Below, in pieces: positions 39,086 to 43,954 of a DNA stretch of 45,965 nucleotides. Made by a program: the position numbers and the translations under genes. Origin of the DNA: an uncultured Verrucomicrobiales bacterium (GTDB lineage Bacteria > Verrucomicrobiota > Verrucomicrobiia > Limisphaerales > Palsa-1400); NCBI GenBank assembly GCA_903927905.1, contig CAIYOY010000146.1:1-45965 (forward strand), read 5' to 3'. Positions within the stretch are counted from its first letter, which is position 1. Each line of letters starts with the position of its first letter. The notes below the pieces were generated by a model. That model did not search any database. It was not told the DNA's origin and was given only the letters and a program-made list of their open reading frames with translations.

Positions 39086-41764
39086 TTAAACCAACCTTGT
39101 TATTTCCGAGAAATCGCTTTTGGTGGGCATAATAAAGAGGCATTTACTGCCGCTACGGGACGACCAGACGGCACCGACCGCACGTTTTTCATCAGCGTCC
39201 GGACCGCCGTATAGGTGTCCGCCTTTATATTCCACCGCCAAGACACGCCCATCAACTAACTGGCAGAGAAAATCGGGGTAAAACCAATCGGTGGAAGTTT
39301 GCAGACGGAACGAAGTTGATTTGCGCGACAAATTACGAATCCAATATTTCACCTCAGCCAAGCCGTCGATGAACTGGGCGCATTTAAATTCTTCGGTAAT
39401 ATTTCCGCCCGGAGTTTTTTCGGGGAGTTCGCCGGGCTTTGGGCCGAAGTAATGCTTTTTAAACTGGAAGCCACCTTCGTAGAGCCAGCTCGGTTCGTAA
39501 CTCATTGTTTTGAAATTAATCGCCCGCTCCGCACTGACCGCGAGCGGGGCTTCAGGAAGGAGAAACGTTTGGAAAGCTATTCGGTTTTCATTTTCGCGAT
39601 GCTGCTGGATTCGTGCTTCAATTTGGTCGCGTAATCGAAAACGATCCAGGGCCAGCACACTAATGTCGGTGATGCCGTGTTTCGCCATCAGGCCGCGAAT
39701 TACTTTCCGCAAAAACTCCGCCGACTCCCCAGCGGGAATGTCTTGATGATCAATATGGGAATCAAGCCAGGCCACCAGCATCTCCATTGTCCAATCGCCG
39801 GCACCGCCAAGTTGAAGCACGTTTTGATGAAGGGTGGCGATGAAATCGTTGGCTGGCATTTCCTCCTGGAGAACGCTGCTTTGTACCTCCCCCTTGTCCC
39901 CAATATCAATCACGCCGGATTTGCCGACCGGCCGCACCAGTGGATTATAGCTTTCGGCAAGGGAAGCATCTTTCGCACTTAGTTTCCAAGGCTGTTCGAT
40001 CAGAAATGTTTTCTCGAACTCAAACAAGTTGCCGTTCTCTTTCACGCACAACAGAGGCACGACAAAATCCAGTTGCAACTCGTACGGTGAAGGAATACGG
40101 GTTTGGCCGGTTCCGCCAAATGCTTTCTCCGCTTCCTCGACCAACTTGACGGCCTCGGCCACCTTTGTCTTGGCTTCGGGTGTCGTCACGCAACTGGATA
40201 ATTTTTCTCCCTCCTCCTTATTGAGCGGGACGATGACGGTAATAGTGCCTTTAATGGAATCAATGCGGACCTTGCCAGCCAGAGCTGATTCTTGCGCCGC
40301 CGCCACCGTGGCATCAATTTCAGCCGGGGCAATCTGCACGGTCTTGGGTTGGGAGCCCAGCGGAAGAACACCCTGCGGAATGGGAATAATAATGCGCTCC
40401 GCTTCAGCGGCTGTAAAACCGTTGCTCTCCAGGGCTTCCCGCAATTCGGCTAATATTTCCGTGATGGAAGGCGAAATGGAAAAGGCGTAGGCGCAATTCA
40501 GGTCGGGATGTTTTTTGGATTTTGCGCCCGGCAGACGGAGGATGCGGCCAACAATTTGTTCAATGGCCGTGGCCGAACGGGTTTCTTTGAGACTGCACAA
40601 GACATAAGCAAACGGACAATCCCATCCCTCGCGCAACTTTTGCACCGTGATGATGAAGCGAACGCGACACTTGGGTGACTTGATTTCGTCTGCTCCGGGC
40701 AATTCATCCAAACTGCCGACAGAAATTTTTATTTCCTCTTTGGAGATATTAAATTCCGCAACCAAACGCTCACGCAACGGTTCGCACGCGTCCACTCGCT
40801 CGGCCTGAATCAGCATGATGGGGCGCAGATATTCACTCGTCTGCTGAGCTTCGCTGGCGGCCAGTTTTTCGAGATCGGCACGCAGTGTGATGGCCTCGGC
40901 CAATAATTGATCTTTTTGACTCGGATGCCGGGTGATGACACGCAAGGGCAGCTTGATCATGTCCGCCGCCTTCAATTCCGCCGCTGACACGCGATGCAGA
41001 ATGTTGGAGGGGTGCTTGGTTCTATCCGGGGTGGCAGTGAACTCCACGATGCAGGAGGGTAGCACGTTGCCAAGCGTGGAAAAACTCAAGTCCGTGCGGG
41101 CATTATGTGCCTCATCCACAATGACAATGGGACGCCGCAGCCTAAGCATATTCACCAATGAGGGCTTTGGTTTTCCATCCGCACCGGGCAGCAAATCGGC
41201 CAAACGGTCGGCGGGTACATTGAGCAAGTGTTCGGAAAAAGAACCATTTTGGTCATAGACTTTTCGGCCCGTGGTATCTTCTACCCGGAAAGATTGAATG
41301 GTTGACACAATTACGACGGTCTGGCCTTCCACTGTTGCTCTCGGCAAACGCAATGCTTCCTCAATGGTCACGACCTCAATGGCGCCACAGGCCAATTCCA
41401 ATGCACGGCGATAATCATGGCGCGGGTCGCGCAATGCATCGGCAGTCTGGGTGAGAATGGTGTTGCTCGGCACAAGCCAGAGAACGACGGCGCGATCCGC
41501 GTGAAGCAACTCACTGATGGCGAGGCCGGCAGCATGACAGGCGAGCAAGGTTTTGCCGCCGCCAGTTGGCACGCGCAGGCAGACGTAGGGCATGCCGGGC
41601 GTCAACCCCGCCGCTTGCACAGGGATATACGGGACCACCGCGCGATTGTTCTTTATTTGGACGTCCTGGAACGCGCCTTCCGGGCGACCGTCTTTGGAGC
41701 ATTGACGGAAAAAGTCGCGGAGTGATTCGAGCACCCGATTCTGATAATCCTTGAGAATAATCAT
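39086..41764 (-). CDS. Type III restriction enzyme Res-like subunit: helicase with PD-(D/E)XK nuclease
   Basis: The 892-residue protein has an SF2 helicase core with Walker A VPTGGGKT (about 65-72), DEAH motif VIVDEAHNA (about 211-219), VEFTATPDR and motif VI QIVGRILRLPG (about 402-412). The far C-terminus carries a nuclease-like motif, FYPDFLCQLVDG...LAVEYKGGH (about 826-847), giving PD-x-ExK. This is the layout of type III Res subunits, which cut DNA after ATP-driven sliding and need the Mod subunit. The ATG at 41764 overlaps the mod stop in ATGA. The longer frame to 41977 would run back through mod and is rejected. Confidence 0.9.
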   Translation of the reverse strand: MIILKDYQNRVLESLRDFFRQCSKDGRPEGAFQDVQIKNNRAVVPYIPVQAAGLTPGMPYVCLRVPTGGGKTLLACHAAGLAISELLHADRAVVLWLVPSNTILTQTADALRDPRHDYRRALELACGAIEVVTIEEALRLPRATVEGQTVVIVSTIQSFRVEDTTGRKVYDQNGSFSEHLLNVPADRLADLLPGADGKPKPSLVNMLRLRRPIVIVDEAHNARTDLSFSTLGNVLPSCIVEFTATPDRTKHPSNILHRVSAAELKAADMIKLPLRVITRHPSQKDQLLAEAITLRADLEKLAASEAQQTSEYLRPIMLIQAERVDACEPLRERLVAEFNISKEEIKISVGSLDELPGADEIKSPKCRVRFIITVQKLREGWDCPFAYVLCSLKETRSATAIEQIVGRILRLPGAKSKKHPDLNCAYAFSISPSITEILAELREALESNGFTAAEAERIIIPIPQGVLPLGSQPKTVQIAPAEIDATVAAAQESALAGKVRIDSIKGTITVIVPLNKEEGEKLSSCVTTPEAKTKVAEAVKLVEEAEKAFGGTGQTRIPSPYELQLDFVVPLLCVKENGNLFEFEKTFLIEQPWKLSAKDASLAESYNPLVRPVGKSGVIDIGDKGEVQSSVLQEEMPANDFIATLHQNVLQLGGAGDWTMEMLVAWLDSHIDHQDIPAGESAEFLRKVIRGLMAKHGITDISVLALDRFRLRDQIEARIQQHRENENRIAFQTFLLPEAPLAVSAERAINFKTMSYEPSWLYEGGFQFKKHYFGPKPGELPEKTPGGNITEEFKCAQFIDGLAEVKYWIRNLSRKSTSFRLQTSTDWFYPDFLCQLVDGRVLAVEYKGGHLYGGPDADEKRAVGAVWSSRSGSKCLFIMPTKSDFSEITRLV

Positions 41765-43365
41765 GACACCTTGATTTCGTAAGGGGATTGGCGGATGAGG
41801 ATGCTCTCCGCTTGCAGCCGTTCGCGTCCGAGCAAGCACCCGGCGCAATAAATAACCTTTGGCCCATCGAACTTCGGCAGTTGTGCCAACACTGTGCGGG
41901 TAAGAACATTCCCACCGTTCACGGTCTTGTCGCCCAAGATTCCATTGTAGAGCAGATAAATCCCGACGCCTCGACACTCGCCGATGAAAGGAGACTTCGT
42001 CACGCGTTCGCGCGGCAATGGCGCGCCTGTTTCTGAGAAATAAACGTGCCTCGCCAGATCAGTGAAACGTACAATGTCTCGGATTTTACCACCCTCGTCG
42101 AATAAGGGGTCGCCTAGTTCACCGAAACGGAAGCCGCCACCGAGACCTGCCACCTTCACACCTCTTTGATCCATATATCCCTCTGCTACACTCTTTACTC
42201 GCTTGGCTGTAATATCGCGTGCTATGTTTGGCTCCATTTCCACCAAAATAAATCGCCGTGGCGGCGATTTTGGTGAAGCTGCATTGAGTTTCAAAATCGC
42301 ATGTCCTGTTGTCCCAGAACCTGCGAAGGAATCGAGAACAAGATCGCCTGGCTTGGATGCAATTTGAAGTATGCTACCAATTAGGGTCGTCGGCTTGGGG
42401 TTATCAAAAACGTCTTCGGACGTACTCAAAACAGACTTTACTTCATCTCGTCCGATATGATTATCACCGACAGCCTCATGTGTCCAAAGTGTCACCGGGA
42501 CGAGCCCCTCTGACAGAGAACCGAGAAAAGTTTTCCTCGATGGAACAGCAGTTCCTTTGGCCCCAAAGAAAATTTCATCGTTTTCATCCATCCGTTCCAT
42601 TGACGCGTCATTAAATCGACGAAACGTTCCGGCAGGTGGGGTCCAAGTTATTCCATTTTTGAATGTGTAGCTGGAATTGTCAGTCCCACTTTTTGCATGC
42701 AATGGAGTCGCTTTCCAGGGCCCCAATCGGTGATTGTCGGGGTTTTTATACGCCCTATCCTGCACCTCACCCCGCTCAAGCCGCCCTATTGTGAATAAAT
42801 CCTTTTGCTTCGCATAGGCTAACAAGTGGTCGTGATTGTCACTGAAGTGTTTGGCATCGTTTGCCCTAGTGTATTTCTTTTGCCATACGCAATTGGCCAG
42901 CAAGTTGGCACCCCCGAAAATCTCATCCATGAGTAATCTGGCATGACCAATCTCATTATCGTCCAAGCTGACGAAAATAACCCCATCTTTACGAAGAAAT
43001 TTCCTTAGCAACACAAGGCGTGGGTACATCATGCAAAGCCAACGGTCGTGTCGGTCAAGGGTTTCGCCTTCTTTGCCCACCACTTTACCGAGCCACTCGC
43101 GCATCAGTGGACTATTGACGTTATCGTTATACACCCAGCCTTCGTTTCCCGTGTTGTAAGGAGGATCTATATAGATGCACTTAACTTGGCCAGCGTAGTA
43201 GGGCAAAAGTGCTTTCAGTGCGACGAGATTATCCCCCTGGACAATGAGGTTGCCGCTGCCGGGATCGCCACAGGCGAGTTCGGGCACGTCTTTAAGCAGA
43301 TGGAAAGGGACGGATTGATGATGGTTCACCACCGCCTCTTTCCCAATCCAATTAAGGGTAGGCAC
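41761..43365 (-). CDS. Type III-like DNA methyltransferase (Mod), beta-class
   Basis: The protein carries motif IV YIDPPYNTGN (about 63-72) before motif I DSFAGSGTTGHAI (about 344-356), the order of beta-class N6-adenine methyltransferases such as type III Mod. LNWIGKEAVVNHH near the N-terminus and VIFVSLDDNEIGHARLLMDE are family-typical. The C-terminal part (about 410-534) is variable and could hold target recognition. The start is a GTG at 43365, which agrees with homologous starts. The central part uses more A and T than neighbouring genes, which hints at transfer. It is translated together with the Res-like gene. Confidence 0.92.
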   Translation of the reverse strand: MPTLNWIGKEAVVNHHQSVPFHLLKDVPELACGDPGSGNLIVQGDNLVALKALLPYYAGQVKCIYIDPPYNTGNEGWVYNDNVNSPLMREWLGKVVGKEGETLDRHDRWLCMMYPRLVLLRKFLRKDGVIFVSLDDNEIGHARLLMDEIFGGANLLANCVWQKKYTRANDAKHFSDNHDHLLAYAKQKDLFTIGRLERGEVQDRAYKNPDNHRLGPWKATPLHAKSGTDNSSYTFKNGITWTPPAGTFRRFNDASMERMDENDEIFFGAKGTAVPSRKTFLGSLSEGLVPVTLWTHEAVGDNHIGRDEVKSVLSTSEDVFDNPKPTTLIGSILQIASKPGDLVLDSFAGSGTTGHAILKLNAASPKSPPRRFILVEMEPNIARDITAKRVKSVAEGYMDQRGVKVAGLGGGFRFGELGDPLFDEGGKIRDIVRFTDLARHVYFSETGAPLPRERVTKSPFIGECRGVGIYLLYNGILGDKTVNGGNVLTRTVLAQLPKFDGPKVIYCAGCLLGRERLQAESILIRQSPYEIKVS

Positions 43366-43410
43366 AGGCTGAGTTTTGGTTACGAGCGTACTCAGCGCTG
43401 TTTGTTGACC

Positions 43411-43563
43411 GTCTTTGTGGGAACTCTGGTGCCTGAAATAGAAAAGGGACGCACTTACTTGCGTCCCATCTCAGGCACCTAGGAGGGCCCACAAAAGAAC
43501 GCTTTCAATGCGCCCCATGTGGGGCGCATCTCAAGCGCTGTCTTTTGTATGAAATTTCCTAGG
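43411..43563. other. Array of two large nested hairpins upstream of the modification gene
   Basis: Unit 1: TCTTTGTGGG (43412) pairs with CCCACAAAAGA (43498), enclosing GGTGCCTGA/TCAGGCACC (43429/43479) and GGGACGCA-CTTACT-TGCGTCCC (43446-43467). Unit 2 is bounded by CCTAGG at 43478-43483 and 43558-43563. It pairs ACAAAAGA with TCTTTTGT and GCTT with AAGC, and has ATGCGCCCCA-TG-TGGGGCGCAT at the tip (43508-43529). The two units overlap in the CCCACAAAAGA segment, so only one outer stem can form at a time. No coding frame is present. It lies in the 856-base gap before accC. Confidence 0.75.
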
Positions 43564-43784
43564 TTTCGAGACGGACAGCAGCCGAAGCTACGCAAAATTT
43601 GTTAAATTATATGTTTATTACATTTTTTGGTTCACGGAATAAATCGGCGTTAGCTTAACGCAGTGGTGGAAGACGCCGCAAGGCGGAAAGGGAGGCGGGA
43701 AGTGGAGTTCGGCGTTCCAAGGTCAAATTCGCGGGACAGTGTACCGCGAATTAGAACATCTCGGCTGGCCGACGAGCAGTGACA

Positions 43785-43931
43785 ATTTCCTCACCACTGG
43801 TGAGGAAATCCTCTGGAGGCATTATGTCCCTGTCACAGAGGGAAACTCAGCCGTCCCTTTGGGACTTCGTTTGTTTGACGCCAAGACCCGGCATTGAAAT
43901 GCCGGGCTATTATCATAAGTCCCTCCGGGAC
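43785..43931. repeat. Cluster of four short palindromes
   Basis: The palindromes are ATTTCCTCACC-ACT-GGTGAGGAAAT (43785-43809), GTCCCTTTGGGAC (43853-43865), CCCGGCAT-TGAA-ATGCCGGG (43887-43906) and GTCCCTCCGGGAC (43919-43931). The second and fourth, with flanks CCGTCCC and GGGACTT, are imperfect inverted copies. This is REP-type sequence and explains the short open frame on the plus strand. Confidence 0.75.
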
Positions 43932-43954
43932 GGGGAGGAATGCACGCTCAGTTT

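Follow-up and report, generated by a model that had tools for sequence, protein, structure and literature searches.

A probable riboswitch-like leader RNA before a type III mod-res operon, with relatives before unrelated defence genes in Verrucomicrobiota

The window – the whole stretch of DNA analysed here, 45,965 nt – covers positions 1-45,965 of the forward strand of contig CAIYOY010000146.1 (assembly GCA_903927905.1), from an uncultured Verrucomicrobiales bacterium (Verrucomicrobiota; Verrucomicrobiia; Limisphaerales; Palsa-1400). Its minus strand carries the two genes of a type III restriction-modification (R-M) system. The start codon of mod is a GTG (43365-43363, minus), while the true start of res probably lies downstream of the longest-frame start given here.

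41761..43365, minus strand: mod, type III DNA methyltransferase (Pfam N6_N4_Mtase, 4.9e-35; PADLOC MTase_III, E 9.8e-194)
39086..41977, minus strand: res, type III restriction subunit (Pfam ResIII, 1.1e-13; longest open frame)

An earlier reading of the letters without database searches (the sequence-only reading) had placed two overlapping nested hairpins at 43411-43563, 45-200 bases upstream of the start of a type III-like modification gene. This description held: both units are found there, the distance to the mod GTG is 46-198 bases, and PADLOC confirms the nature of the gene. Unit 1 is built from the inverted repeats 43428-43439/43468-43479, 43441-43453/43460-43472 and 43414-43426/43483-43495, and unit 2 from 43490-43517/43520-43547, with its outer words ACCTAGGA/TCCTAGGT at 43477-43484/43557-43564. 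The CCTAGG words that were said to mark both ends of unit 2, 80 bases apart, are indeed there, at that spacing from start to start. The same is true of the segment common to both units, which makes the outer stems mutually exclusive: on the minus strand, TCTTTTGTGGG has two possible partners, ACAAAAGA in unit 2 and CCCACAAAGA in the outer stem of unit 1. The folding of this 191-nt stretch is far from random, with a z score against shuffles of -6.7 as DNA and of -8.5 and -8.9 as RNA of the two strands, and none of 200 shuffles folds as well. A search for tandem repeats found none.

Three features had been missed. The hairpins face mod and, since mod and res are both encoded on the minus strand, it is the minus-strand RNA which is relevant; they comprise an intrinsic terminator, made of the inner hairpin of unit 1 and a T-run on that strand; and the feature extends past them both ways, with a UUCG hairpin upstream and a hairpin at the start codon downstream. 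Read in this direction, the putative leader is about 230 nt long and displays, from 5′ to 3′, the UUCG hairpin, an irregular long stem whose internal loops are invariant (43596-43468, minus), the terminator, a post-terminator segment and the start-codon hairpin. The parts of this RNA, delineated in part with a covariance model (R1) built from 53 relatives, are as follows.

43446..43596, minus strand: core leader RNA, sensor-like stem and terminator (R1 positions 1-151; the window scores 170.7 bits)
43578..43591, minus strand: P0, 5′ hairpin GUAGC-UUCG-GCUGC (near-invariant in the column statistics of 102 copies; 98% of cells paired)
43573..43576, minus strand: invariant GUCC, antiterminator-like P1a (predicted partner, the 5′ arm of the terminator in nascent RNA)
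43568..43572, minus strand: P1b, 5′ strand (partner 43468-43472; up to 4 Watson-Crick pair types per position, 96-98% paired)
43557..43563, minus strand: P1c, 5′ strand, with one CCTAGG word (pairs with 43478-43484; 4 pairs changed on both sides)
43541..43548, minus strand: P2, 5′ strand (changes on both sides in 8 of 8 pairs)
43499..43538, minus strand: P3 and P4, with a conserved UYGA/GAAA internal loop between them (covariation)
43491..43498, minus strand: P2, 3′ strand, or segment X, common to two mutually exclusive helices (three-way covariation)
43478..43484, minus strand: P1c, 3′ strand, with the other CCTAGG word (covariation)
43468..43472, minus strand: P1b, 3′ strand, adjoining the terminator on its 5′ side (covariation)
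43446..43467, minus strand: intrinsic terminator hairpin GGGACGCA-AGUAAG-UGCGUCCC, then UUUUCUAUUU (terminator scan)
43428..43435, minus strand: post-terminator CAGGCACC, complementary to GGUGCCUG of the core and conserved before defence genes
43414..43427, minus strand: segment Y (AGAGUUCCCACAAA), alternative partner of segment X
43368..43396, minus strand: start-codon hairpin, ending 2 nt before the mod GTG (fold z in the window, -3.1)

Three internal loops of the core are conserved (GAAAC/GUGCCU, AAUUUCG/GGGC and UYGA/GAAA), P1b is a stem of 5 bp, the length of P1c differs among copies, and nearly all relatives retain the terminator hairpin. In front of defence genes the leader runs on with ACAG and GGCTGA, then the start-codon hairpin; 23 of 29 leaders have this hairpin ending 0-2 nt ahead of the start codon (start codons were taken from the longest open frames). 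Its stem shows compensated variation in some copies, with GCAGA/TCTGC in L124 and a different stem body in L231.

The surroundings deserve a few words. A sigma-70 scan found no promoter of that type before the leader. The approximately 45 nt upstream of the element form, in the 102 copies, an A/C-rich and G-poor stretch (about 43597-43640 in the window, minus strand), which might serve as promoter or as Rho-type site, or be a 5′ tail without structure. The same intergenic region also houses, on the strand opposite to the leader, an Acido-Lenti-1 RNA (RF01687, 40 bits, above the gathering score; 43887-43932, plus strand), and a second copy of this RNA (748-792) was met in L226, a locus that also has the leader.

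Covariation of base pairs shows that the core is a conserved RNA structure. In a MAFFT alignment of the relatives 88.8% of the cells are paired, and 355 cells are changed on both sides where shuffles give 107 ± 11. With the 96 copies (92 distinct) aligned to the model – an alignment that is biased toward it – the values are 93.1% paired and 658 both-side changes, against 177. When the partners are slid by 1-3 columns in the MAFFT alignment, the paired fraction drops to 36-50% (36-52% over the slid controls as a whole). The CCTAGG words themselves are swapped in relatives for GCTAA/TTAGC, TGGC/GCCA and others, the pairing being kept. This bears on a first rival explanation, that of DNA operator palindromes bound by a repressor of the R-M operon, in the manner of C proteins or RptR. 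The location before R-M genes and the palindromic nature of CCTAGG speak for it. However, the stems are long and imperfect, with conserved internal loops, and their sequence varies freely while pairing is kept, when a protein operator would keep the sequence. We regard this account as very unlikely.

That two mutually exclusive helices are both conserved is shown as well. Segment X is complementary to segment Y in the 53 copies that have the motif GGCAC (or GGCGC) after the terminator: the mean duplex energy is -19.2 kcal/mol, against -13.8 kcal/mol (sd 0.43) when Y is permuted among copies, and none of 2000 permutations did as well. A referee may object that this covariation is drawn from related sequences; when the set is thinned to 35 dissimilar copies, the effect still reaches a z of -10, and the next 24 nt downstream of Y, used as a negative control, are flat. 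The effect is absent from the 31 copies without the GGCAC motif. Position by position, X changes and yet keeps a standard pair both with the 5′ strand of P2 and with Y; five positions upstream of the conserved GG, for example, the triplets formed by the P2 5′ strand, X and Y are GCG (15 copies), AUA (13) and CGC (11). Because X holds standard pairs with both partners while changing, selection appears to keep both helices. The exclusion of the outer stems, already visible in the window, is thus itself conserved by covariation.

The link to the terminator is of a weaker kind. In predicted folds of RNA truncated in the terminator loop, 80 of 85 leaders have GUCC paired with the terminator's 5′ arm, a pairing that the completed terminator is predicted to displace. 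Both sides being invariant, the pairing has no support from covariation and rests on energy alone. RNAalifold also proposed that the second block of the leader pairs with the UUCG region at the 5′ end; this was rejected, as nearly all the pairs involved are invariant or variable on one side only.

How widespread is this RNA? The genome of the window has a single copy. G005, a genome of the same family, has two, with 85-86% identity, one before an unrelated PLD/SNF2 helicase gene and the other at a contig end. A DNA search of the phylum retrieved 19 genomes with the element, and the invariant pattern of the 5′ block, GCTTCGGCTGCTGTCC-N5-6-GAAAC, occurs in at least 119 stretches among 84,980 species genomes, mostly of Verrucomicrobiota, with a few metagenome-assembled genomes (MAGs) labelled Phycisphaerae, Victivallales, Lentisphaerae or others. 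With the covariance model, about 12% of the sampled genomes prove to have the element, 45 of 384 in the class and 46 of 384 in the phylum, each with 1-7 copies; many of the searched genomes are MAGs. Weaker full-length matches (26-75 bits) form diverged subfamilies in which the layout is unchanged. In the phylum of the Phycisphaerae copy 7 of 294 genomes match, part of them weakly, and matches are few in Planctomycetota. In the phylum of a MAG labelled Deltaproteobacteria nothing matches beyond that MAG, which makes its label or its binning doubtful.

Some further observations go with this survey. L254-L259, from the phylum of the Phycisphaerae copy, represent a diverged subfamily with the same layout, and in three of these six (L255, L256 and L257) a zinc-ribbon-like protein (VHVLRCPNCGADLDV) is encoded downstream. 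Two copies may also be close neighbours, within 1.5 kb in L202 (3678-3829 and 5223-5373) and within 6 kb in L069 (1016-1172 and 6997-7153). Mean identity of leaders is 0.82 within a genome versus 0.78 between genomes. Gene conversion, or descent together with the downstream gene, was considered as the main pattern of similarity and rejected, as within-genome, homologous-gene and unrelated comparisons differ only weakly. Carriage by phages or plasmids was rejected too: phage and plasmid collections gave no match, and viral contigs no match to the exact pattern.

The genes that follow the leader tell a more pointed story. The next gene is on the strand of the leader in 91 of 102 cases (a first set gave 62 of 69, with p 4e-12, and a second one 29 of 33), and the strand of the upstream gene shows no bias (42:35). 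Among 62 downstream proteins scanned with Pfam, N6_N4_Mtase is found 15 times and ResIII 9 times, together with MmeI, type ISP, C5 methylase, BrxA, DUF1156, Mrr and RadC domains; additional scans recognized HsdM, DUF499, full-length HmaB and PLD helicases. Other downstream proteins carry domains usual in secreted proteins (TSP3, LamG or beta-helix). The set of R-M and defence domains is not enriched in 77 upstream proteins. Altogether, 47 of the 91 next genes belong to R-M or defence, by a Pfam domain or by BLASTP to such a protein, a few of these calls being softer (RadC followed by methylase and helicase-like frames, L054 with a weak HSDR_N match, and L220 with DUF499). These systems are unrelated to one another – types I, II, IIG, III, ISP, BREX, Hma and PLD-helicase – and the remainder is mostly made of genes for secreted proteins. 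The association with defence genes and the orientation are shown.

The orientation, together with the spacing, weighs against a second rival, a REP-like or MITE-like mobile palindrome landing in intergenic space. In its favour, some genomes have up to 7 copies and the distribution is patchy. Against it, copies within a genome are mostly diverged and the genome of the window has only one, the element is oriented toward genes, the distance from leader to defence gene is nearly constant at about 220 nt, and the copies are constrained by three-way covariation. This makes it very unlikely. An ordinary REP, an outcome that the sequence-only reading had allowed for, is likewise disfavoured, with copies few per genome and diverged, 91 of 102 pointing toward the next gene, and a layout conserved up to the start codon.

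The leader comes in two forms. Its second block is present before 36 of the 47 defence genes versus 3 of the 44 others (p 4e-12), and X:Y pairing tracks defence genes in the same way (37 of 45 versus 5 of 34). Second block, X:Y pairing and start-codon hairpin go mainly with defence genes: the full switch is found mainly there, and the core with its terminator mainly before genes for secreted proteins. In L046, L103, L219, L233 and others, for instance, a leader without second block precedes large secreted proteins with LamG, TSP3, beta-helix, Calx-beta or Ig-like domains. In L038, the leader and a gene for a type ISP R-M protein of 1695 aa sit between homologues of gapA and pgk, as if they had been inserted together.

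The short form invites a third rival, an independent small RNA that acts in trans, ends at its own terminator and lies before defence genes by chance. A strong terminator closes the core, and the copies before secreted-protein genes have core and terminator, mostly without the second block. Yet the conserved features after the terminator – Y, which covaries with P2, and the start-codon hairpin – require read-through, and the orientation of the element is fixed toward the next gene. We find this explanation unlikely.

The reading we prefer is that the hairpins are a cis-acting, riboswitch-like, bistable leader RNA of the mod-res operon (we would give it a probability of about 0.8, from sequence alone and without transcript or expression data), and a member of a family common to many unrelated R-M or defence genes and to some genes for secreted proteins. 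Of the three possibilities raised by the sequence-only reading – RNA switch, regulated operator, mobile palindrome – it is therefore the first which is supported; both of the things that it had named as support, copies upstream of other mod genes and compensatory changes, turned up. One correction to its view of a mod-res leader is that the leader is not specific to mod.

The conserved structure and the terminator are shown; transcription as a leader, conditional termination and a step at translation are inferred. As the RNA emerges, its 5′ domain would fold (P1b to P4) and the invariant GUCC would hold the 5′ arm of the terminator. If a signal (a ligand or a protein) stabilised this fold, the terminator would not form and RNA polymerase would read through; without signal the terminator would form, and transcription would end about 80 nt before the gene. 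In the read-through RNA, Y would capture X, the 3′ strand of P2, and together with CAGGCACC would zip the molecule into one long hairpin around the terminator, so that the 5′ domain is dismantled. This hairpin, with the one at the start codon, would be a second control, probably of translation. Since Y is made after the terminator, the X:Y helix comes too late to decide termination; it must affect RNA that has already read through, and its effect, we infer, is most simply exerted on translation or stability, beside the start-codon hairpin. The likely sensor is the core, with its invariant loops, and the likely link to termination is the predicted pairing of GUCC with the terminator arm. As for the sign of the control, off by default (a double lock) and on with signal is the option we favour, but it remains undetermined, and our confidence in it is below even odds.

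Two more specific ideas found no support. A NusG paralogue as partner is not indicated, NusG-family counts being alike in 20 genomes with and 20 without the element. The other idea, a leader peptide with its end in the terminator loop, was encouraged by 14 sequences but is broken in at least 7 others: the GTG-CCN...TRA frame over the loop suffers 1-nt shifts or lost stops in L050, L117, L086, L097, L099, L108 and L072. Concerning the signal, about half of the copies precede genes for secreted proteins or others, mostly without the second block, so that it need not concern defence. A bolder reading can be entertained as a possibility: a new class of RNA switch might sense one signal tied to phage infection or foreign DNA, conceivably a nucleotide, a second messenger or the transcription state of the host, and R-M types I-III, ISP, BREX and Hma, though chemically unrelated, might be under one RNA control across Verrucomicrobiota.

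The element matches no family of Rfam release 15 at the gathering score, in the window or in nine further loci (the best match below threshold over the element has 21.3 bits, for a threshold of 45), and we did not find a description of such a leader in the open-licence literature searched, an absence that is weak evidence. Within these limits, the earlier remark that no described element with this layout was known still stands. A 2010 report of 104 candidate structured RNAs does not mention restriction or methyltransferases in its main text (PMC2864571).

The closest likeness is with riboswitches that use intrinsic terminators as platforms: a conserved 5′ domain with invariant loops, exclusive helices, a terminator, a structured start-codon region and a position in cis to the gene. 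Unlike them, the leader belongs to no known Rfam class and precedes unrelated defence and secreted-protein genes rather than those of one pathway. Several criteria of riboswitches are met (a structured domain with compensated changes, exclusive helices, position in cis), regulation of the gene being inferred; that it works like a riboswitch or an attenuator is likewise an inference from sequence alone, and there are no data on ligand binding, the defining point of riboswitches. Leaders of processive antitermination, such as put RNA or the EAR element, are structured RNAs placed before long operons that may govern read-through. The present leader resembles them in being a structured RNA before an operon with possible control of read-through, but differs in containing a terminator itself and, beyond it, a refolding partner; among the genomes compared, those with the element have no excess of NusG-family proteins. 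REP/BIME or MITE sequences share with it nested intergenic palindromes and several copies in some genomes, but lack its orientation, its distance to the start codon, its terminator and its three-way covariation.

Finally, little is settled about what silences defence systems and what activates them, and the known shared regulators are DNA-binding proteins. RptR, a protein, is the shared repressor of type I R-M islands (PMC12255303); like C proteins, it resembles the leader in being a shared regulator found with many R-M systems. Those proteins bind DNA and act on promoters. Here, one RNA family with two conserved alternative folds stands before unrelated types of defence genes throughout a phylum, which suggests that a single RNA device switches very diverse defence systems in these bacteria. 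A signal common to defence expression may act through it, which can be tested; the genes behind it should point to additional defence operons; and, as one more orphan switch class, it invites the search for a ligand.
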